Of a DNA stretch of 49,771 bases, positions 6,034 to 35,560 are shown one piece after another; within the stretch, counting starts at the first letter, position 1, and each line of letters starts with the position of its first letter. The notes under the pieces were generated by a model, which saw nothing but the letters and a program-made list of their open reading frames with translations, ran no database searches and was not told where the DNA came from. The position numbers and the translations under genes are program-made. The stretch lies in NCBI GenBank assembly GCA_029261965.1, contig JAJDAH010000145.1:1-49771 (forward strand), in the 5' to 3' direction. The stretch comes from Polyangiaceae bacterium (GTDB lineage Bacteria; Myxococcota_A; Polyangia; Polyangiales; Polyangiaceae).

Positions 6034-7659
6034 ATGGCCGCTCACAGGAGAGTTCAAAGCAAGGCCGTCGACGCCGCGATACGCGTCGTGGACGGCCTGC
6101 GCGCCAAGGACGGCATGCTGGGGCGCGCAGCTCGCGCGATGGACGACGAACTCAGCCTCCGCTACCTCGCGGACCGCCTACGGCTCGAGGACGAGCTCAT
6201 CGATCGGTTCGTGGGTTCCGTGCCGGTGCTGGGGGGCGACCGAGTATCGCTCGTCGTGCCCGTCTACGGCATCCCGGTGCCGTATCTGGCGGAGCTCTTC
6301 GATGGCGTAAAGGCGCAGACCTACACCGACTGGGAGGTTTGCCTATGCGATGACGGAGATCCCGACGAGGAAGTTCGACGCTACCTGGAAAAACTATCGC
6401 AGGCCGACTCCCGGTTCCGGTTGTCGCGTCACGCGGACAATCGGGGCGTCTCTGCCGCGACGAACACGGCGCTCGGGTTGGCAACCGGTGAGCTCATTGC
6501 TTTCGTCGACGCCGACGATCTCCTGCACAAACGCACACTGGAAGTCGTCGTCGCGGCGTTCGGGCGAGGCCCCGACGTCGACTTCGTCTACACCGACAAT
6601 GACCACGCGACCGACCTCGGCCACCGCCGCTCGCCGCTCCGCAAACCTGGATGGAGTCCCGAGCTGCTGCAGTGTGTCAACTACGTGAATCATCTCGTCG
6701 TCGTGCGTCGCTCGTGCCTCGATCGGTGCTCGAACCTGTTTGCGCCGAAGACGTCGGGAGGTCAGGACTGGGACCTGTGCCTGAAAGCATCCAAGCAGGC
6801 GCGACGGATCGTTCACGCGCCGCTCCCGCTCTACCATTGGCGCAAACGACCAGGGTCCATCGCCGCTGACTTGGAGGCCAAGCCGTGGGTCGCAAGCGCC
6901 TGCAGGGAGGTGCGCTTGGAAGACCTACGGCAGTTGGATCCGCGTTTGACGCTCAGGCCAGTCGCTGAGACGGAACTCTATCGCCACCACCTCGAGCCCG
7001 ATTTCGACGCCGGATGCGATCTGCCGACGGTTTCGGTGATCGTCGTCGACGCTCCGTCGGATTCGGCCCGACCTTTCCTCCAAGACTACCGCGGGTGGCA
7101 GCGCGTCCAGCATCTGCTCACGGACGCGGCCGAGACGAACGGTGCGCTCATCGAACGAATCACCGCGGCGCTCCGGACTGACGAAGCTGATTTTGCCTTG
7201 TTTCTCGACGGCGGTCGCCCGCCTCCGGAGGGAGAGCTGACTCGGCTTCTAGCATTCGCGGTTCAGCCCGCGATTGGCTGCGTCTGGCCGTTCCACGACG
7301 AGAACCAGCGGCTCGCGTACACCGTAGGCGAAAGAGAGCGGCTCGTTCAGCTGAGCGAGTCGACCACGGTCTTTTCACGATTCAGCGGCAATGTTCTGAC
7401 CGGTCCGCTTCATGGGATGCTTGTCGCGCCGGACCGCTGGCTCGGCGCCGTCGAGTGGCTGGAGCGGCTGGGAGAGCCTGGGGTCAGCTTCCAGGATTCC
7501 CCGAGGAGCAACGACGCGGTTGGAGCGGCCGTCGGTTTGGCGATGCGGGCCAGCGGCCACCGAAACGTCGGATGCCGGGGCATGTGCTGCGGCGTGGACG
7601 ATCTTCCGGAAGTCCTCGTTCCTACAGCACTTTTGGGTGGTCCAGACCCCTACTGCTGA
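6034..7659 (+). CDS. GT2 family glycosyltransferase
   Basis: 541 residues from the ATG at 6034 (a TTG at 6022 is less likely). The GT2 domain starts near residue 70 (VSLVVPVYGIP), carries the metal-binding DADD near 157, and continues through the W-S-P-E-L and YHWR motifs, as in the first GT2 domain of the preceding protein. Residues 335-541 have the layout of a second GT2 domain but with weak motifs (FLDGG where FLNNDTE would be expected), so that half is probably degenerate. It likely transfers a sugar to the same surface glycan as its upstream neighbour. Confidence 0.88.
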   Translation: MAAHRRVQSKAVDAAIRVVDGLRAKDGMLGRAARAMDDELSLRYLADRLRLEDELIDRFVGSVPVLGGDRVSLVVPVYGIPVPYLAELFDGVKAQTYTDWEVCLCDDGDPDEEVRRYLEKLSQADSRFRLSRHADNRGVSAATNTALGLATGELIAFVDADDLLHKRTLEVVVAAFGRGPDVDFVYTDNDHATDLGHRRSPLRKPGWSPELLQCVNYVNHLVVVRRSCLDRCSNLFAPKTSGGQDWDLCLKASKQARRIVHAPLPLYHWRKRPGSIAADLEAKPWVASACREVRLEDLRQLDPRLTLRPVAETELYRHHLEPDFDAGCDLPTVSVIVVDAPSDSARPFLQDYRGWQRVQHLLTDAAETNGALIERITAALRTDEADFALFLDGGRPPPEGELTRLLAFAVQPAIGCVWPFHDENQRLAYTVGERERLVQLSESTTVFSRFSGNVLTGPLHGMLVAPDRWLGAVEWLERLGEPGVSFQDSPRSNDAVGAAVGLAMRASGHRNVGCRGMCCGVDDLPEVLVPTALLGGPDPYC

Positions 7660-25505: not shown

Positions 25506-26189
25506 TCAGTGCGGGTGCTGTCTTGGAGCCATCATCAACCGTTCATTTCGTCGTTGTTGGTTGACACAATACTGGAGCGCGTCCCTCAGCGTTCGATGGC
25601 TCTGCAAACCATCCAGCAACGTGCCGAGATGGACGAGCGTCTGCGCGATGCTCGGCCCGATGCCGCTCAGCACGCACTCGGCCCCGAGCAAGCTCACAGC
25701 CTTGGCCATGCGGATGAAGTGGTCGGCGGTGGCGGTGTCCATCACTTCGATGCCCGTGATGTCGACGATCACGAACCGCGCCTTGTGCTCACCAATCGCC
25801 GACAACAGCGCGTCGGTCATCTCCGAAGAGCGCATGCTGTCGAGAATTCCGACGACGGGCAGACACAAGACGCCGTCCCAGACCTGAATGACCGGTGTCG
25901 ACATTTCGCGAATGGCCGCCCTTTGGCGGTCGATGGTGCCGAGCTTCTCCTCGAGCTCTCGTTGGTACTCGCGACTCTTCGTGTGCGCGCTCTCGAGCAC
26001 GTCGAGCATCTCGTTGAGACCGGTGACGAGCGCGCCGAAAGGTCCCGTCGTCTCGCTCGCGGTGATCCGCACCGAATAATCTTCTGAAGCCACGTCCGCG
26101 AGAGTCATGAGCACCTCCGAGAGGTTGCTGTAAAACTCCAGCTCCACATCACTCATCTGGCCGTGCGAACCGCCCGGTGCTTCTGTCAT
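25506..26189 (-). CDS. rsbR: RsbR-like STAS-domain stressosome protein
   Basis: 227 residues. The N-terminus (about 15-95) is a HAMP-like helical input (SVRITASETTGPFGALVTGL, then a coiled coil). The C-terminal STAS domain (about 100-215) has the RsbR signature: VIQVWDGVLCLPVVG, IVDITGIEVMDTATADHF with a phosphorylatable Thr after the Asp, and GIGPSIAQTLVHLG. RsbR proteins form the sensory shell of stressosomes with RsbS and release RsbT when phosphorylated. RsbS and RsbT homologues lie in the divergent operon 8 kb away. It is 22 bases downstream of a TIGR02265-like sensor gene, probably its co-transcribed input partner. Confidence 0.85.
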   Translation of the reverse strand: MTEAPGGSHGQMSDVELEFYSNLSEVLMTLADVASEDYSVRITASETTGPFGALVTGLNEMLDVLESAHTKSREYQRELEEKLGTIDRQRAAIREMSTPVIQVWDGVLCLPVVGILDSMRSSEMTDALLSAIGEHKARFVIVDITGIEVMDTATADHFIRMAKAVSLLGAECVLSGIGPSIAQTLVHLGTLLDGLQSHRTLRDALQYCVNQQRRNERLMMAPRQHPH

Positions 26190-26211
26190 CGATCGCCCGT
26201 TACCTTTCCAT

Positions 26212-26775
26212 TCAGTTCCAAGTGACCGTCAGCTCGACGGTCGAAGGCCACTCGACCAGCAGGTCCTCTTTCGTCTTGACGTCGATGTCCTTGCAGCCCA
26301 TCGACCGAAACGCAAACTGAACGAACCCTCTGGCAATGGCGTTGAAGTACGCCAACTCCACGTCGTAGACCTCGTAGGTGACGATGTTCTGATCGAGCTT
26401 CGACCCGTCGGTGCGAAAGCCGCCCCCGCGGTGGTCGCGCTTCCAGATCGCATCGATTTTCGATCCCAAGAGCTGCGGCGTCATGATGCGCATGACCAGC
26501 CGCAAGAATTGGTTGGTCTGAGCTTCGCAAACGCGCTCGCCCAAGCCGATGACGACGTCCGCACGCTCGTTCGGGTCGTCGTAGAGCGCGACGAACGCGC
26601 GGATCAGCTCCGACCAATAGGCGCGTGGGTAGAAGGTGAATCGTTCTGCCACTGGGAGGAGCTCCTGAAGCTCGGGGGACAGTCGAGCCATGACCTCCGG
26701 CATTGAACCTGGGCGCCTCTCTTCGATGTACCTGAGAGTGGTGAGCAAGTTGTAGCCCTTCGACTCGGCACCCAT
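26212..26775 (-). CDS. TIGR02265/DUF2378-like sensor protein
   Basis: 187 residues from the ATG at 26775, with AAGGAG (26784-26789) eight bases upstream; a GTG at 26778 is the alternative. The layout (a GYNLLTTLRYIEERRP helix, F-Y-P-R-A-Y-W, a D-V-V-I-G-L-G helix, L-R-L-V-M-R-I-M-T-P-Q-L-L, a late G-F-V-Q-F-A-F-R-S-M-G segment) resembles the myxobacterial TIGR02265 paralogous family, itself similar to HNOB/V4R ligand-sensing folds. Coupled to RsbR, it is a plausible small-molecule or haem-type input to the stressosome. The family call is moderate; the ligand is unknown. Confidence 0.55.
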   Translation of the reverse strand: MGAESKGYNLLTTLRYIEERRPGSMPEVMARLSPELQELLPVAERFTFYPRAYWSELIRAFVALYDDPNERADVVIGLGERVCEAQTNQFLRLVMRIMTPQLLGSKIDAIWKRDHRGGGFRTDGSKLDQNIVTYEVYDVELAYFNAIARGFVQFAFRSMGCKDIDVKTKEDLLVEWPSTVELTVTWN

Positions 26776-26778
26776 CAC

Positions 26779-29441: not shown

Positions 29442-30173
29442 ATGAAAAGTGTGCTCGAGCTCATCGAAAAGCGCCGCCGCAAGTACGAAGACCATCCCTA
29501 CATTCGCTACCTGCTCGACGATAGCCGTAGCCCCCAAGAGCGGCTCGCCTACGCGCCCTTCGCCAGCCACTTCGTGCTGACATTTTCCGAGTTCAACCGG
29601 TACTTCCTCCACAGCGAAAGAGGAAGCCGCGATATGCACCAGCAGTCCGTCGACAAGCACGCCAAGGAAGACTCGCGCCACTACGCCTGGTTCCTCGAGG
29701 ACCTGCAGTCGCTCGGCTACGACGCCGAGTGCCGATTCACCGACGCACTCCGGTTCGTGTGGGGTGATCTCGGCCGCAGAACCCGCGAGCTGGGGTACTA
29801 CGCCATCGGCGTCGCAAGGGATGCCGACCCCGAGATTCGGTTGGTCATCGTCGAAGCGATGGAAGCCATGGGTAACGTCTGGCTCCGCGCCACGCTCGAA
29901 GCTGCCAAAAAGCACCCGAACTACGAGCGACTCATCTACTTCGGCCAGTATCACCTCGACCGTGAAACGGGACATGCCATCGGCAGCGAGCACGAAGAAA
30001 TCGCCCGCATCGATCTGGGAGATCGGCGCCGTGCCGGGGCAATCCCCATCGTTCATGGCTTGTTCGACCGGATGGAGGCCTTCAACCAGGAGATCCTCGA
30101 ACGGGTGGGGTCCGCTTATTCGGCGGACGGGGCGGACCCGGGGTCGGCCATCCCGGATTTCATGAAGTTCTGA
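29442..30173 (+). CDS. Haem-oxygenase-fold candidate metalloenzyme
   Basis: 243 residues, cytoplasmic, all-helical by appearance, preceded by GGGGGAG. It resembles the haem-oxygenase-like / iron-containing redox enzyme group (PF14518-like, HDO). Clusters of potential metal ligands occur on successive helices: D-K-H-A-K-E-D-S-R-H-Y-A-W-F-L-E-D-L near residue 75 and YHLDRETGHAIGSEHEEI near residue 170. HDO-type enzymes use a diiron centre for N-oxygenation, desaturation or C-C cleavage. Position directly before two flavin monooxygenase-like genes supports an oxidative role. Fold assignment is moderate and the substrate unknown. Confidence 0.55.
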   Translation: MKSVLELIEKRRRKYEDHPYIRYLLDDSRSPQERLAYAPFASHFVLTFSEFNRYFLHSERGSRDMHQQSVDKHAKEDSRHYAWFLEDLQSLGYDAECRFTDALRFVWGDLGRRTRELGYYAIGVARDADPEIRLVIVEAMEAMGNVWLRATLEAAKKHPNYERLIYFGQYHLDRETGHAIGSEHEEIARIDLGDRRRAGAIPIVHGLFDRMEAFNQEILERVGSAYSADGADPGSAIPDFMKF

Positions 30174-30260
30174 TCTACAGCCCGCCGTGGGGCAAAGACC
30201 CTCCGTGTTCATCCGGAACTACAATTACTTTGAAGTCGTCTAAGCTTGTTGCCAGATCCC
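30174..30260. other. 87-base gap inside the long operon
   Basis: One of the two largest gaps in the 17-gene run; it is AT-richer toward its 3' end and could hold an internal promoter for the flavoprotein and rsb genes, but no clear motif was found. Confidence 0.3.
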
Positions 30261-31910
30261 ATGACCCACGAGATCGTCCAATACTGCATCGTCGGCGCCG
30301 GCCCAGCGGGGCTACAGATGGCGTACTTCCTCGAACGCGCTGGACGAAGCTACGTCGTTCTCGAAGCCAACGAGCTCGCCGGCAGCTTCTTCGAGAGCTA
30401 CCCGCGACATCGCAAGCTGCTCTCGATCAACAAGCGGCACACCGGTCGGTCCGACGCGGAGTTCAACCTCCGACACGACTGGAACTCGCTCTTGAGCGAT
30501 CGCCCCGATCTGCGCATGGCCGAGTTCAGCCGCGAGTACTTTCCGAAAGCCGACGACCTGGTCCGCTACCTGGGCTCGTTCGCGACGAGTCTCGGCCTCG
30601 AGATCCGCTACGGCCAACGAGTCCGAAGAGTCGAACGCGACGGCAGCTCGGGGCCATTCGTCGTCACGAACGAGCGTGGCGAGCGGCTCGCTTGCTCCTC
30701 TCTAATCGTTGGGACCGGGATGGGCGCACCGCACGTGCCCGAGGTTCCCGGCATCGAGCTGGCTGAGGGCTACGAAACGATGAACCTCGCGCTCGAAGAA
30801 TACGAAAACCAGAGCGTGCTCATTCTGGGAAAAGGCAACTCGGCGTTCGAGACCGCCGACCACCTCATTCCAGCGACGTCGGTCATACACGTGCTGAGCC
30901 CGACGCCTCTTCGCCTGGCGTGGGATTCGCGATTCGTCGGCCACCTTCGAGCGGTGAACAACAACCTGCTCGACACTTACCACCTCAAATCCCAAAACGC
31001 CGTCATCGACGCCGAGCTTCTCTCGATCGAGAAAACGGCCGACGGGAAGCTCCGGGTGTGTTTCGCGCCGATTCATGCCCCGAACGAATCCGAGCAAATC
31101 GAATACGATCGGGTGATCCGTTGCACCGGGTTTCGCTTCGAAACGAAGATCTTCTCGGAATCTACCACCCCAAAAATGTCGGCGTGCGGACGCCTCCCCC
31201 AGCTGACTTCGGGGTTCGAGGCCGTCGGCGTCGACGACATGTTCTTCATTGGCGCCCCAATGCAGTCGCTGGACTACAAGCGCACGCAATCGGCGTTCAT
31301 TCACGGTTTTCGCTACAACATCCGCTCGCTCTTTCATTTGCTCGAGCGCCGCTACCACGGGGTCGCTCTACCCGGCGCGCTGCTCGACCCCGAACCGCGC
31401 AAGTTGGCGGCGACAATCCTCGACCGCATGAACGTGGTCTCTTCTCTGTGGCAGCAGGTCGGCTTTCTGGCGGACATGCTGATTCTGCCGCGTGGTGACG
31501 AACGGAAGGTGCGCACGTTGCACGATCTGCCCTACGACTACCTGGTCGAGCACGGGCCCGAGCTCGCCGATGGCCGCGACTTCTACGTTTGCATGTTTCG
31601 AATCGGAAAGAGCCCGGACAACCCCTTCGACTACGCTCGCAACAGCAATCCCTACGAGGGCGACACCAGCACCGAAATCCACCCCAAGCTCGAGCTGTAT
31701 CGGGAAGGACAGCTGGTCGACGAGTTCCACGTGCTCGAGGACTTCCTCGCTGATTGGAGTGGCAACGACTACGTCGAATCCACCGCGGAGTTTCTCGCGC
31801 ACTCGATGCGAGGAGAGCCCGCCCCGAAGAAGAAGCTCGACCGACCGCGGAGCATCGTTCGGGGCGCTGGCATGAGACTCGTCAACACGGGACGGGAGGC
31901 GGAACGATGA
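30261..31910 (+). CDS. FOXRED2/ERFAD-like FAD-dependent oxidoreductase (copy 1)
   Basis: 549 residues from the ATG at 30261. An FAD-binding Rossmann motif GAGPAGLQMAYFL is at residues 12-24, followed by RHRKLLSINKRHTG and LRHDWNSLL. The NADPH-binding motif GKGNSAFETADH is near residue 190, and LRAVNNNLLDTYHLKSQN follows. These blocks are those of eukaryotic FOXRED2 (ERFAD), an ER-lumen flavoprotein, rather than of ordinary bacterial flavin monooxygenases. No signal peptide is present, so it should act in the cytoplasm. It overlaps the second copy by four bases. The reaction is unknown; NAD(P)H-dependent oxygenation or reduction is inferred from the two nucleotide sites. Confidence 0.88.
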   Translation: MTHEIVQYCIVGAGPAGLQMAYFLERAGRSYVVLEANELAGSFFESYPRHRKLLSINKRHTGRSDAEFNLRHDWNSLLSDRPDLRMAEFSREYFPKADDLVRYLGSFATSLGLEIRYGQRVRRVERDGSSGPFVVTNERGERLACSSLIVGTGMGAPHVPEVPGIELAEGYETMNLALEEYENQSVLILGKGNSAFETADHLIPATSVIHVLSPTPLRLAWDSRFVGHLRAVNNNLLDTYHLKSQNAVIDAELLSIEKTADGKLRVCFAPIHAPNESEQIEYDRVIRCTGFRFETKIFSESTTPKMSACGRLPQLTSGFEAVGVDDMFFIGAPMQSLDYKRTQSAFIHGFRYNIRSLFHLLERRYHGVALPGALLDPEPRKLAATILDRMNVVSSLWQQVGFLADMLILPRGDERKVRTLHDLPYDYLVEHGPELADGRDFYVCMFRIGKSPDNPFDYARNSNPYEGDTSTEIHPKLELYREGQLVDEFHVLEDFLADWSGNDYVESTAEFLAHSMRGEPAPKKKLDRPRSIVRGAGMRLVNTGREAER

Positions 31911-33505
31911 CGCATGTTCGAAACATCGTGCTAGGGGCCGGACCAGCCGGGCTTCAGATGGCGTACTTCCTTGCACAGAAGGGAGAGCCCTACGTCGTGC
32001 TCGAGCGCAACGACAACGCGGGCTCCTTCTTCGAAAGACATCCACGGCATCGCACCCTGCTTTCGATCAACAAGCGCTACACCGGATGCAAAGACCTCGA
32101 ATCGCGCCGACGATACGACTGGAACTCGCTTCTGTGCCCTGAAGAGGAGCTCCAGTTCGTCGAGTACACCAACGAGTACTTCCCGGACTCCGCGCACCTG
32201 GTTCGCTATCTCGGCGACTTTGCCAAGTACCATGGCCTGGAGATCCGCTACGGCGCGACGGTCCGGCAGGTGAGCCGCGCGGAAGTTGGATTCTTGCTCG
32301 CCACCGAAGACGGCGAGGAACTTTCCTGTGACCGTCTCTTCGTCGGTACCGGCTTTACGCAGGAGAACCTTCCCGAAATCGACGGGCTCGAGCTTTGCGA
32401 CACCTACGACGGCGTCTCGGTCGACGCGAACGACTTTCTCGACCGGCGTGTGATGATCGTCGGCAAGGGCAACTCGGCGTTCGAAACCGCGGACCATCTG
32501 GTCGGAACCACGCGCAAGATGTGGGTCTGCGGCCCGCGCACCGTACGCTTGGCGTGGGCGTCGCACTACGTCGGCGATCTGCGCGCCGTCAACAACAACT
32601 ACCTGGACACCTACCAGCTCAAAGCCCAGAACAACATTCTCGACGGCGAGCTCCGTTCGGTACGGCGCGACGCCAAGAATCGGGATCTCGTAGCGACCGT
32701 GTACTTCGAGTCACGACAGAGAAGCTACGACTATCACTGCGACCACGTCGTCCTCTGTACGGGGTTTCGCTTCGACCCCGGCATCTTCGCCGAAGGATGC
32801 GAGCCCGAAATGCGACAGTGCGGCCGGCTACCTCTGATGACTTGCGAGTGGGAGTCGACGAACTTGCCCGAGATGTTTTTCATCGGGACGCTGATGCAAG
32901 CCCGCGACTACCGCCGCACGATGTCGGCGTTCATCCACGGATTCCGACACAACATCGAGGCGCTCGACCGCATTCTGGACTGCCGTACCGGAGCGCCCTG
33001 GCGAGCGCGCGGCGTGTTTCCGCAATGCGCAGGGGAGCTCGCCAAGCTGTTGATCCAACGCTTGAGCACTTCGGCGGGGCTGTTGCTGCAACCGGGATTT
33101 CTTTGCGACGCCGTCGTGCTCGACGACGAAGGAGCATCGGTCGAATACCTGCGGGACCTGCCGGTAGACTACGCGCACGAAAAACTGCTGCCGAAGCATC
33201 GCTGTGTCTATCTCGCGGCGCTCGAATACAAGAAGCAGGATCTGTCGATGGACCCCTTTGCGATGCCCCGCGGCGTCGGCGTGGCGGAGGACTACTACAT
33301 TCATCCGATCCTCCGTCGATACGAGGAGGGCAGGCTCACCGGTAGATTTTATCTGCCGGACGACCTCGACAACGACTGGCGGGACGACCCGGAGCACCAC
33401 GCCGCGCTCGAAGCCTGTTTTGCGCGCGAGCTCGGTGGGCCCGACGTCGCAGCGACATCGGACTCGGGCTTCACCGACGTGCCGAGCACGTCGGCCGCCG
33501 AGTGA
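31907..33505 (+). CDS. FOXRED2/ERFAD-like FAD-dependent oxidoreductase (copy 2)
   Basis: 532 residues, ATG in an ATGA overlap and preceded by GGGAGG. It is a tandem paralogue of the preceding protein: GAGPAGLQMAYFL at 10-22, RHRTLLSINKRYTG, YDWNSLL, GKGNSAFETADH near 185 and LRAVNNNYLDTYQLKAQNN. The two copies share these blocks but have diverged over most of their length, so the duplication is old and the two may form a heterodimer or act in sequence. Both nucleotide-binding motifs are intact. The last 30 residues are a low-complexity Ser/Ala/Thr tail. Confidence 0.88.
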   Translation: MTHVRNIVLGAGPAGLQMAYFLAQKGEPYVVLERNDNAGSFFERHPRHRTLLSINKRYTGCKDLESRRRYDWNSLLCPEEELQFVEYTNEYFPDSAHLVRYLGDFAKYHGLEIRYGATVRQVSRAEVGFLLATEDGEELSCDRLFVGTGFTQENLPEIDGLELCDTYDGVSVDANDFLDRRVMIVGKGNSAFETADHLVGTTRKMWVCGPRTVRLAWASHYVGDLRAVNNNYLDTYQLKAQNNILDGELRSVRRDAKNRDLVATVYFESRQRSYDYHCDHVVLCTGFRFDPGIFAEGCEPEMRQCGRLPLMTCEWESTNLPEMFFIGTLMQARDYRRTMSAFIHGFRHNIEALDRILDCRTGAPWRARGVFPQCAGELAKLLIQRLSTSAGLLLQPGFLCDAVVLDDEGASVEYLRDLPVDYAHEKLLPKHRCVYLAALEYKKQDLSMDPFAMPRGVGVAEDYYIHPILRRYEEGRLTGRFYLPDDLDNDWRDDPEHHAALEACFARELGGPDVAATSDSGFTDVPSTSAAE

Positions 33506-33526: not shown

Positions 33527-34153
33527 GTGGACCAGTACGACAGGCTGCTCACCCTGCTCTCCGGATACGTCTCCCCGCTGAACGCACGGAGTGTCCTGAA
33601 CCGCGCGCTGAGCCATCCTCGCATCGAGCGGCACCAGCTCGTCGAGCGGCGTCTCGCAGAGATCGTGCCCCGCATCGGGCGCGCAGCGCAGCTCTTCATC
33701 GATCCCGCGCGGAGCGACAGCCTGGAAAAGGAGCTCCGCGCACTCGTTGGCGACCGCGCGCCACCCACCAGGATCCTCGTCGAAATCAACGGCGAAGCCG
33801 ACATCGTCCGCGCCCGCGCCGCGGGCCGACGCATTTGCGAGACCTTCGAGATCAATGGGTTTTCGGTCCAAAAGGTCGCCACGATCATCAGCGAGCTCAG
33901 CCGAAACATCGCGAGCTACGTCGGTCGCGGTCAGCTCGAGATCGTTCCCATCTCGGGGCGCCCGCCGCGAGTGCAGATTGTCGCCGAGGACGCGGGACCG
34001 GGCATCTCGGGCATCGATCGAATTCTCGCAGGCCAATACAAGAGCAAGACGGGACTGGGTCTCGGCATCTTGGGATCGAAACGTCTCGCCGACAGGTTCG
34101 ACATCCAGACCGGCGCCGGCGGAACCCGCATCGAGGTGGAGGTCATCCTGTGA
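33527..34153 (+). CDS. rsbT: RsbT-like serine kinase / switch protein with N-terminal extension
   Basis: 208 residues from a GTG with AAAGGG five bases upstream. Residues 1-80 are an extra helical segment not found in standard RsbT. The GHKL ATPase part has the N-box ELSRNIASY, G1 box EDAGPGI and G2 box TGLGLGILGSKR, all intact. RsbT phosphorylates RsbS and RsbR in the stressosome core and, once released, activates a downstream partner. It overlaps the phosphatase gene by four bases. The extension might bind an output protein or dimerise. Confidence 0.87.
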   Translation: MDQYDRLLTLLSGYVSPLNARSVLNRALSHPRIERHQLVERRLAEIVPRIGRAAQLFIDPARSDSLEKELRALVGDRAPPTRILVEINGEADIVRARAAGRRICETFEINGFSVQKVATIISELSRNIASYVGRGQLEIVPISGRPPRVQIVAEDAGPGISGIDRILAGQYKSKTGLGLGILGSKRLADRFDIQTGAGGTRIEVEVIL

Positions 34154-34713
34154 CCGTCACCGCCGACGGCGTCTCGTTGCCCAAGCTCGGAGAGGAGCAA
34201 AACGGCGACGCCCTGGTCATACGCATCGAAGGCGACGCCGCTTTACTCGCGGTGGTCGACGCCCTGGGCCACGGCCCATGTGCAGCAGAAGCTGCGCGGT
34301 GTGCCGTCGGCCTACTCGAGGAGGTGGAGCTGGCCAGCAGCCCAGCCGACGTTCTCCGTTGCCTGCACGACGCTTTGAGAGGAAGCCGGGGAGCGGCGGC
34401 CACCATATGCTGCGTGCGGGGATCACGCCTCGATGGATGTGGAGTCGGCAACGTTCAGATGCGAGCGTACGGCGCCCAGGTGCCGATAGTCTCTTCCCCC
34501 GGCATCTTGGGCTCGTCGGTCCGGAGCTATCGAGAGTTTTCGTGCGATCTGGCGGGATCCGCGCGCATCATCCTGTACTCCGACGGCATCGCGTTCCGGC
34601 GATTCGACGACAAACGTGAATCGAGCGTCTGGGAAATGTGCCGGCGGGTCATGGATCGATGTCGCCGCGACCACGACGACGCCACGATTCTGGCGGCCGA
34701 CGTTTTTCTCTGA
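34150..34713 (+). CDS. rsbX: RsbX-like PP2C/SpoIIE-type phosphatase
   Basis: 187 residues, GTG start in a GTGA overlap with a GGAGG upstream. A compact PP2C-like domain: VDALGHGPCAAEAA (metal-binding Asp and GHG), an ILYSDGI strand and C-terminal DDATILAADV with the final metal-binding Asp pair. It matches RsbX, which resets the stressosome by dephosphorylating RsbS and RsbR. At this length it has no sensor domain, consistent with a feedback phosphatase rather than an RsbU-type activator. Confidence 0.85.
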   Translation: MTVTADGVSLPKLGEEQNGDALVIRIEGDAALLAVVDALGHGPCAAEAARCAVGLLEEVELASSPADVLRCLHDALRGSRGAAATICCVRGSRLDGCGVGNVQMRAYGAQVPIVSSPGILGSSVRSYREFSCDLAGSARIILYSDGIAFRRFDDKRESSVWEMCRRVMDRCRRDHDDATILAADVFL

Positions 34714-34723
34714 CGGAGCACTC

Positions 34724-35143
34724 ATGGAAGAACGGTACGAGCGAATTCCGATCATTCAACTCTGGGACCAGCTACTGGTTCCCCTGCAGGGCGACGTCAC
34801 CGATGCGCACGCCGACCGGTTGTGCGACGAAGTGCTCGAACGGCTGAGACGAACCGAAGCGCGAGGCTTGGCCGTCGACATCACTGGTCTGTGGGTCGTC
34901 GACAGCCACCTGTGCGCGACGCTTTCGCGCCTAGCGGCGTCTGCTCAACTCATGGGAACCAAAACCGTGCTCTGCGGCATGAGCCCGTCGATTGCGCTGA
35001 CCCTGCAGACGATGGGTGTCGAGCTCACGGGAGTGAAGATGGCGTTGGATCTCGAAGAAGCGCTCGAGTGGCTCGGGTTCCGCGTCGCGGGGCCCGACCA
35101 CCGACGAGAGCTCGACGGCGAATGGGCTCCGGGCGAGGACTGA
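34724..35143 (+). CDS. rsbS: RsbS-like STAS protein
   Basis: 139 residues. A single STAS domain begins IPIIQLWDQLLVPLQGDV and contains LAVDITGLWVVDSHL, where the Ser after Asp is the expected RsbT phosphorylation site, then LMGTKTVLCGMSPSIALTL. RsbS forms the stressosome core and sequesters RsbT. A polar tail of about 20 residues follows the domain. Ten bases from the phosphatase and directly abutting the next kinase-like gene. Confidence 0.87.
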   Translation: MEERYERIPIIQLWDQLLVPLQGDVTDAHADRLCDEVLERLRRTEARGLAVDITGLWVVDSHLCATLSRLAASAQLMGTKTVLCGMSPSIALTLQTMGVELTGVKMALDLEEALEWLGFRVAGPDHRRELDGEWAPGED

Positions 35144-35560
35144 TTGAGAACCGTGTATCGAATCGCCGAACGCTCGGATCTCGCCGCCCTGCGGGATGGC
35201 GTGCGCCGGCTCAGCAGCGCGACCGGCTTCGATCGGCGGGAGGGAGAAGAGATGGCGTTGGTGGCGACCGAGCTCGGCACCAACATTCTGAAGTACTCGG
35301 CCCCCGGCGAGATCCGCCTGGCGGCCGGAAAGGACTCGCTCGAGATCGTCGCCGAGGACGCCGGTGCCGCAATTCCGGCAATCGCGCTCGAAGACGGGTG
35401 CGATGCTGGCGGGCCCATCGGCCCCGAACACCAGCTCGGCCGCGGGGGCTTCGGCGCAGGCCTCGGGGCCATCCAACGGCTGAGCGACCACTTCGAATAC
35501 CACCGAATCGACGGGCGAAACCGCATCCGGGTGTCGCGCGCGAAGCGAAATGGGGCCTGA
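35144..35560 (+). CDS. Divergent second RsbT-like ATPase
   Basis: 138 residues if the TTG directly after the rsbS stop is used (GAGGA four bases upstream), 135 from a GTG at 35153. It is a GHKL anti-sigma-factor/RsbT-type domain with N-box ELGTNILKY. The G1 box reads EDAGAAIP instead of EDAGPGI, and a Gly-rich GRGGFGAGLGAIQRL replaces the usual G2 box. Nucleotide binding may therefore be altered, or the protein may be a non-catalytic partner. Two RsbT-like proteins with one RsbS is unusual but known in some stressosome loci. Confidence 0.78.
   Translation: MRTVYRIAERSDLAALRDGVRRLSSATGFDRREGEEMALVATELGTNILKYSAPGEIRLAAGKDSLEIVAEDAGAAIPAIALEDGCDAGGPIGPEHQLGRGGFGAGLGAIQRLSDHFEYHRIDGRNRIRVSRAKRNGA

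Follow-up and report, generated by a model that had tools for sequence, protein, structure and literature searches.

The three consecutive genes at positions 29442-33505 of contig JAJDAH010000145.1 from a Polyangiaceae bacterium (GenBank assembly GCA_029261965.1; the whole stretch of 49,771 nucleotides that was analysed is called the window) encode a homologue of the diiron enzyme AetD and two flavoproteins, F1 and F2, related to eukaryotic ERFAD/FOXRED2. We propose that they may constitute a tryptophan-type oxidation cassette in which the ERFAD-like enzymes would act as single-component halogenases or oxygenases. Taken as a whole, this statement is given slightly better than even chances; functional coupling of the AetD-like and ERFAD-like proteins, taken alone, is considered highly probable. 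The genes are the following:

29442..30173, + strand: AetD-like haem-oxygenase-like diiron oxidase (HDO), 243 residues, assigned by phmmer, Foldseek and ligand positions
30261..31910, + strand: F1, an ERFAD/FOXRED2-like flavoprotein of the flavin adenine dinucleotide (FAD)/nicotinamide adenine dinucleotide phosphate (NADP) type, 549 residues, ATG start at 30261
31907..33505, + strand: F2, a second, diverged ERFAD/FOXRED2-like flavoprotein, 532 residues, ATG start at 31907

The AetD-like gene starts 23 bases past a preceding cytochrome-c-peroxidase-like open reading frame (ORF). Its product had no Pfam match at E 0.01; it matched AetD in the Protein Data Bank (PDB) with a phmmer E-value of 2.7e-38, and a profile of 22 of its relatives matched AetD at 2.3e-80. 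When its predicted structure (predicted local distance difference test, pLDDT, 83.2; predicted template modelling score, pTM, 0.83) was searched with Foldseek, the top 21 chains were all AetD (template modelling score 0.84-0.90, 30-33% identity), the next being UndA (E 2.5e-3), in agreement with the haem-oxygenase fold proposed for this neighbour in a preliminary description of the region. AetD is the diiron nitrile synthase of aetokthonotoxin biosynthesis (PMC11611611, PMC10654658), which converts L-tryptophan, either unmodified or in its 5-bromo or 5,7-dibromo form, into indole-3-carbonitriles (PMC10654658); D76, H79, E140, H172, E176 and H179 are described as its iron ligands, and F48 and Y167 as pocket residues (PMC11611611). 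All six ligands were kept in the window protein as a set of three histidines and three carboxylates (D77, H80, E141, H171, E175 and H178, counted by hand on the alignment), and the AetD pocket residues F44, F48 and Y167 were matched as well (window F48, Y166); such a ligand set together with the hydrophobic F48 characterises substrate-triggered HDOs. At about 32% identity, the two proteins have the fold, the six iron ligands, F44, F48, H72 and Y167 in common and differ in their partners, which are ERFAD-like proteins in the window and AetF in the case of AetD. SktA, an AetD relative whose product is 5-bromoskatole, differs at positions 139, 142 and 214 (PMC13108848); in the window protein these positions hold Met, as in AetD, then Met, then Ala, the 214 column being less surely aligned. 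Judged from sequence and model, the neighbour of F1 and F2 is an AetD homologue, which the preliminary description had missed, and the likely function of the cassette therefore changed.

F1 and F2 overlap in the ATGA at 31907-31910, so the gene positions and the four-base overlap reported earlier held good, as did the presence in both proteins, in the stated order, of the blocks GAGPAGLQ, SINKRHTG or SINKRYTG, WNSLL, GKGNSAFETA and LRAVNNN. Both matched Pfam Pyr_redox_3 (2.1e-38 for F1 and 5.8e-38 for F2), were 43% identical to each other and were the only full-length ERFAD-like copies in their own genome, with no third.

Scanning of 84,980 prokaryote genomes gave 512 pattern stretches, 478 of them encoding a relative, and the best 80 were kept as ERFAD-like loci. 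All 19 loci among these that were cyanobacterial by title contained an AetD-like gene, which lay directly upstream in 15, directly downstream in two (L036 and L049), and was fused to the ERFAD-like gene in one (L052); in L041 it was 7 kb off, and the ERFAD-like protein began with a 47-residue HDO remnant. Among the 61 kept loci from other organisms, two had an AetD-like gene (L016 and L034). The fusions joined the AetD-like and ERFAD-like parts in a single ORF of 890 residues in Acaryochloris (L052) and of 781 residues in a member of Silvanigrellales (L034). In genome G008, the ORF after two ERFAD-like genes was of another haem-oxygenase-like kind (Haem_oxygenas_2, 3.4e-5, a score that misses Pfam's cut-off). 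In the tree of AetD-like proteins, a single clade for the 21 ERFAD-linked rows was rejected by the approximately unbiased test (p-AU 3.5e-5), suggesting that the pairing was gained or lost repeatedly. The fusions and the conserved linkage give good support to the earlier idea of a heteromeric or sequential oxidation together with the haem-oxygenase-fold protein. No AetD/ERFAD pairing was found in the searched literature, which did not cover the SktA paper or supplements, and priority is uncertain.

The operons of Cyanobacteriota pointed to the kind of enzyme that an ERFAD-like protein may be. In L209 (genome G324), the order was AetD-like gene, tryptophan 5-halogenase homologue (Trp_halogenase 7.1e-148; PDB 8fov 2.5e-183; motif WVWNIP) and flavin monooxygenase (FMO; PF00743, 2.3e-56). 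The same gene order was seen in L210 (genome G449), L031 and L037, but with an ERFAD-like gene in the middle slot. Compared with L209/L162, the AetD-like proteins of these three loci had identities of 52-69%; the L209 FMO was matched at 56-58% identity by those of L210 and L031, and the FMO of L037 was 78% identical to that of L210. In the AetD-like tree, L162 (the place of L209), L031, L037 and L170 (the place of L210) formed one clade (100/98). In L163, L168, L171 and L182 the AetD-like gene was followed downstream by another Trp_halogenase-type ORF, an assignment made with Pfam for two of them (whole ORFs, 1.2e-39 and 6e-37) and by sequence likeness for the other two. No ERFAD-like gene was found genome-wide in nine AetD-like genomes that lacked an adjacent one (control 8/8), five of which had a halogenase-type partner (G324, G393, G218, G223 and G389). 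The L162/L209 cluster seems likelier than the ERFAD cluster to be a skt-type locus, because it has the SktA residues T139 and T142 as well as the tryptophan 5-halogenase homologue.

Trp_halogenase-family genes near ERFAD-like genes were also considered as general support, which was weakened by the surroundings of two of them: that of L071 adjoins a TonB-receptor-like ORF and sugar-type genes, that of L100 is 7 kb away, and both were left uncounted.

One-to-one fusion, as in L052 and L034, might also be expected if the ERFAD-like protein were an NADPH-dependent reductase supplying electrons to the diiron centre, the fusions and linkage then reflecting electron transfer. For human ERFAD, reduction of small molecules is described, without a demonstrated thiol reductase activity (PMC5751730), and YpdA, the closest fold to F1 by Z (28.1), is a reductase. 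This role nevertheless appears quite unlikely: 27 of 30 AetD-like loci, taken from 23 of 292 cyanobacterial genomes with a neighbourhood of 1.5 kb, had no ERFAD-like neighbour, and in the window a single diiron gene stands beside two ERFAD-like genes. Moreover, the exchange partner is a homologue of tryptophan halogenases, which depend on a reductase themselves.

A sister operon was found in the Nannocystaceae metagenome-assembled genome NORP301 (L016). Its order was AetD-like gene (52%), F2 orthologue (58-59% identical), gene for a 679-residue AetF-like protein, and F1 orthologue (55-56% identical), with four-base overlaps at the first two joints. In the flavoprotein tree, F1 and F2 each paired with a different L016 protein (support 99 and 100, respectively), so the two are old paralogues; a recent tandem duplication was ruled out by their 43% identity and by the separate L016 orthologue of each. 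The 679-residue protein was a homologue of AetF (E 3.2e-30), with a Lys aligned to AetF Lys258 (counted by hand). AetF, the partner of AetD, is a single-component tryptophan halogenase (PMC10306068) whose product is the AetD substrate (PMC11611611). By homology, the L016 operon thus combines the orthologues of F1 and F2 with relatives of both partner enzymes of a known bromotryptophan pathway, an arrangement that supports a tryptophan substrate class and also shows that ERFAD-like enzymes can work alongside a halogenase as well as in its place. An AetF-like gene was absent from the own genome of F1 and F2 and was found in one of the 193 genomes searched (G096). Lys258 of AetF lies within an insertion of its NADP domain (PMC10306068). 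One invariant Lys of the ERFAD-like proteins, K243 of F1 (56/56 members), is placed by the AlphaFold2 (AF2) model at a helix end in the insertion that follows the first section of the NADP domain, and would be a candidate counterpart of Lys258. AetF was absent among the best 60 of 262 rows for the family profile and among the best 50 Foldseek and best 50 VIA-align rows for F1, neither of which excludes likeness.

The bacterial ERFAD-like family itself was well delimited. A match at E <= 1e-20 was present in 9 of the 144 genomes searched, the own genome among them, and the best 80 relatives and the tree labels included Cyanobacteriota, Actinomycetota, Myxococcota, Planctomycetota, Acidobacteriota, Gemmatimonadota, Pseudomonadota, Bacteroidota, Chloroflexota and Bdellovibrionota. 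A profile of 11 bacterial members was scored on 107 flavoprotein rows with at least 250 aligned residues each, namely 99 family rows, including the viral row L096, and 8 other flavoproteins for comparison. Scores were 633-826 bits for 98 family rows (F1 791, F2 762), 295 for L096 and 106-302 for the other flavoproteins; on these scores, the family match is neither chance nor generic Rossmann likeness. DWN (99/99), the xNK block (97/99) and FI[HD]GFR (96/99) were family motifs absent from all 8 ordinary flavoproteins tested. Residues K58, R71, D73, W74, N75, K243, H474 and P475 of F1 were among those invariant over 56 aligned members. The class B fingerprint FxGxxxHxxx(W/Y/F) just before the NADP motif occurred in none of the 99 family rows as against 5 of the 8 others, and in the 107-row tree the 99 family rows split off from these 8 (branch support 88); the tree is of a quick kind with several long branches, and its deep order was not used. 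Membership in the ordinary class B FMOs is ruled out by the profile scores, the tree split and the missing fingerprint, which confirms the preliminary description on this point. F1 and F2 conform to the ERFAD-like family in which OroF and human ERFAD have been placed (PMC12833800). OroF comes from a sponge, has 43% identity to human ERFAD and uses FAD, NADPH and KBr to brominate pyrroles, whereas no chlorination by it was observed (PMC12833800); among the matches listed, this paper was the only relevant one on the ERFAD-like family.

The AF2 model of F1 (pLDDT 94.1, pTM 0.93) was compared with solved structures over its core, residues 3-366, the part after about residue 402 being hardly covered. 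Within the best 50 rows of VIA-align, YpdA was closest by Z (Z 28.1, root mean square deviation 2.8, 316 residues aligned), and the small FMO 4a9w (Z 26.8, root mean square deviation 2.2, 312 aligned), 3d1c (Z 26.8) and N-hydroxylases (Z about 20) were also found. Small bacterial FMOs and YpdA (4a9w, 7a7b) have the FAD/NADP core in common with F1 residues 3-366 (Z 27-28) and lack its C-terminal part of about 180 residues. That flavin monooxygenases are among these folds is compatible with ERFAD-like proteins being N- or C-hydroxylases that act through a flavin hydroperoxide on the amino acid of the AetD-like enzyme, and so are the lack of a WxWxIP motif in the family and the existence of an AetD-like gene with a lone flavin oxygenase (L208). 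We consider hydroxylation instead of halogenation unlikely, since ERFAD-like genes occupy the tryptophan-halogenase slot of operons that already have a separate FMO, a member of the family, OroF, is a brominase (PMC12833800), and 99/99 rows lack the class B fingerprint.

Several family members lay in other surroundings. In the viral contig L096 of IMG/VR, the gene at 6052-7542, for a diverged ERFAD-like protein (29-32%), is flanked by dioxygenase-looking ORFs and by two Trp_halogenase-like ORFs. In Streptosporangiales loci (L053, L063, L045 and others) an AMP-binding ligase gene was directly upstream of the ERFAD-like gene, without an AetD-like gene; of these ligases that of L053 was tested with Pfam (1e-63). 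The sponge oro bundle likewise includes a CoA ligase (PMC12833800). In Pseudoalteromonas luteoviolacea (L090, 9983-11623) the ERFAD-like gene was in a large locus resembling, by eye, one for nonribosomal peptide synthetases, followed by a TauD-looking ORF. Amidohydrolase and radical SAM ORFs were the neighbours in L058, L062, L069 and L079 (Pseudomonas, Aquabacterium and others), ATP-grasp ORFs were nearby in L058, L079 and others, and L058 also had a pyridoxal-phosphate-dependent decarboxylase.

From this evidence we infer the substrate, the halogenation and the order of steps. The genes at 29442-33505 would act together as a single oxidation cassette on an aromatic amino acid, with tryptophan or one of its derivatives as the likeliest candidate. 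Through its amino and carboxyl groups this amino acid would bind to the iron pair of the AetD-like enzyme, which would oxidise or cleave the side chain to give a nitrile-type or related product. The ERFAD-like proteins would be single-component flavoenzymes, in which NADPH reduces the bound FAD and O2 then gives a flavin hydroperoxide able to halogenate or to oxygenate the ring of the substrate shared with the diiron enzyme, either ahead of that enzyme's step or following it. Halogenation would be the first choice because of the slot exchange, OroF and the AetF-like partner. As both of these old paralogues have kept the invariant residues of the family, F1 and F2 probably serve two different ring positions or two successive steps.

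A number of observations weigh against this proposal. We know of no activity for any bacterial ERFAD-like protein; within the family, OroF is the only member known to give a halide-dependent product (PMC12833800). The two-component halogenase motif WxWxIP was found in none of the 99 family rows, and the nearest solved folds of F1 (best 50 each of Foldseek and VIA-align) were YpdA and small FMOs. At position 142 the window AetD-like protein, with Met, differs from both AetD (Ala) and SktA (Thr). In L016 the F1 and F2 orthologues stand beside an AetF-like enzyme, which by sequence shows that they are no simple replacement of the halogenase. Seen from the AetD side, 3 of the 30 cyanobacterial AetD-like loci had an ERFAD-like gene within 1.5 kb and 5 of the 30 a Trp_halogenase-type ORF, and often there was no flavoprotein at all within that distance; in L208 the AetD-like gene was paired with an FMO alone, and myxobacterial AetD-like genes were paired with cytokinin-dehydrogenase-like FAD oxidases. 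None of the 16 myxobacterial AetD-like loci fetched had an ERFAD-like gene beside the AetD-like one.

AetD-like proteins were also met outside such operons. An FAD-linked oxidase with a start resembling a twin-arginine translocation signal adjoins the AetD-like gene in the myxobacterial loci L138, L144, L147, L149, L151 and L152, that of L138 being cytokinin-dehydrogenase-like (Pfam 1.7e-30, the one tested). Other myxobacterial loci (L122-L132) had ORFs of about 500-730 residues with one or two AetD-like domains, some in tandem, and two of these that were tested had no Pfam match. A tblastn search with the window protein gave 331 records, including 265 Escherichia and 22 Salmonella plasmids, the listed enterobacterial ones being about 23% identical. 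In one of them, the Escherichia coli IncFIB plasmid NZ_CP019247.1 (L205, 4001-5503), a 500-residue 'hypothetical protein' with two AetD/HDO-like domains is encoded a few kb from sitCD.

As to the other neighbours in the window, F2 is directly followed at 33527-35560 by ATPase, SpoIIE, STAS and ATPase partner-switching genes, and a STAS-looking gene with another ORF lies upstream on the minus strand (25506-26778). L138 and L149 had similar partner-switching modules close to their AetD-like genes, and L100 had one close to its ERFAD-like gene.

The bacterial proteins resemble ERFAD and OroF in the order of the blocks, in having two dinucleotide folds and a C-terminal part, and in lacking a redox CxxC. 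A human FOXRED2 sequence, which we take to be an approximate query and a lead only, scored 531 bits over residues 32-589 against the bacterial profile; this query was 42% identical to the Nonomuraea protein (L053), 38.5% to F1 and 35.5% to F2, and at most 28% to ordinary flavoproteins over about 200-220 residues. For FOXRED2/ERFAD, the OroF report gives no known natural reaction (PMC12833800), and ERFAD is described as an NADPH-type flavoprotein without reductase cysteines and, in the account given there, without a known thiol substrate (PMC5751730). The bacterial proteins differ from ERFAD in their operon with an AetD-like enzyme and in their two copies. They also lack its C-terminal KEEL (PMC3040216), the ends of F1 and F2 being GREAER and STSAAE, and any N-terminal signal peptide, since both begin at the first Rossmann strand. 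The likeness to ERFAD, and a closest fold by Z that is a bacillithiol disulphide reductase, would be in keeping with thiol/disulphide or quality-control flavoproteins, as proposed for FOXRED2, beside which the diiron neighbour would be incidental. We regard such a role as very improbable: CxxC was found in none of the 99 family rows, the two mostly-Cys columns (F1 C288 and the column of F1 T302) do not form a CxxC pair, signal peptide and KEEL are absent, and ORFs of a biosynthetic kind are found nearby again and again (AetD-like, AetF-like, AMP ligase, P450 and methyltransferase). The link to proteostasis suggested in the preliminary description found no support, given the missing CxxC, signal peptide and KEEL end, and a redox role of the endoplasmic reticulum type was rejected for F1 and F2 on the first two.

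A wider view, tentative and in our judgement rather doubtful, is that the ERFAD/FOXRED2 fold represents an old bacterial family of wide distribution that acts on tryptophan and other aromatics, its members being flavin halogenases of the single-component type or oxygenases akin to them. This family would have become physically coupled to AetD-like enzymes several times independently, and FOXRED2 and OroF would be late offshoots of it. A large bacterial family whose gene neighbourhoods suggest tryptophan halogenation or oxidation provides FOXRED2/ERFAD with a specific reaction that can be tested, and would account for the brominase activity of a sponge paralogue. There would also be a new family of single-component halogenases and a new type of partner for AetD-like enzymes, including fusions in one polypeptide.

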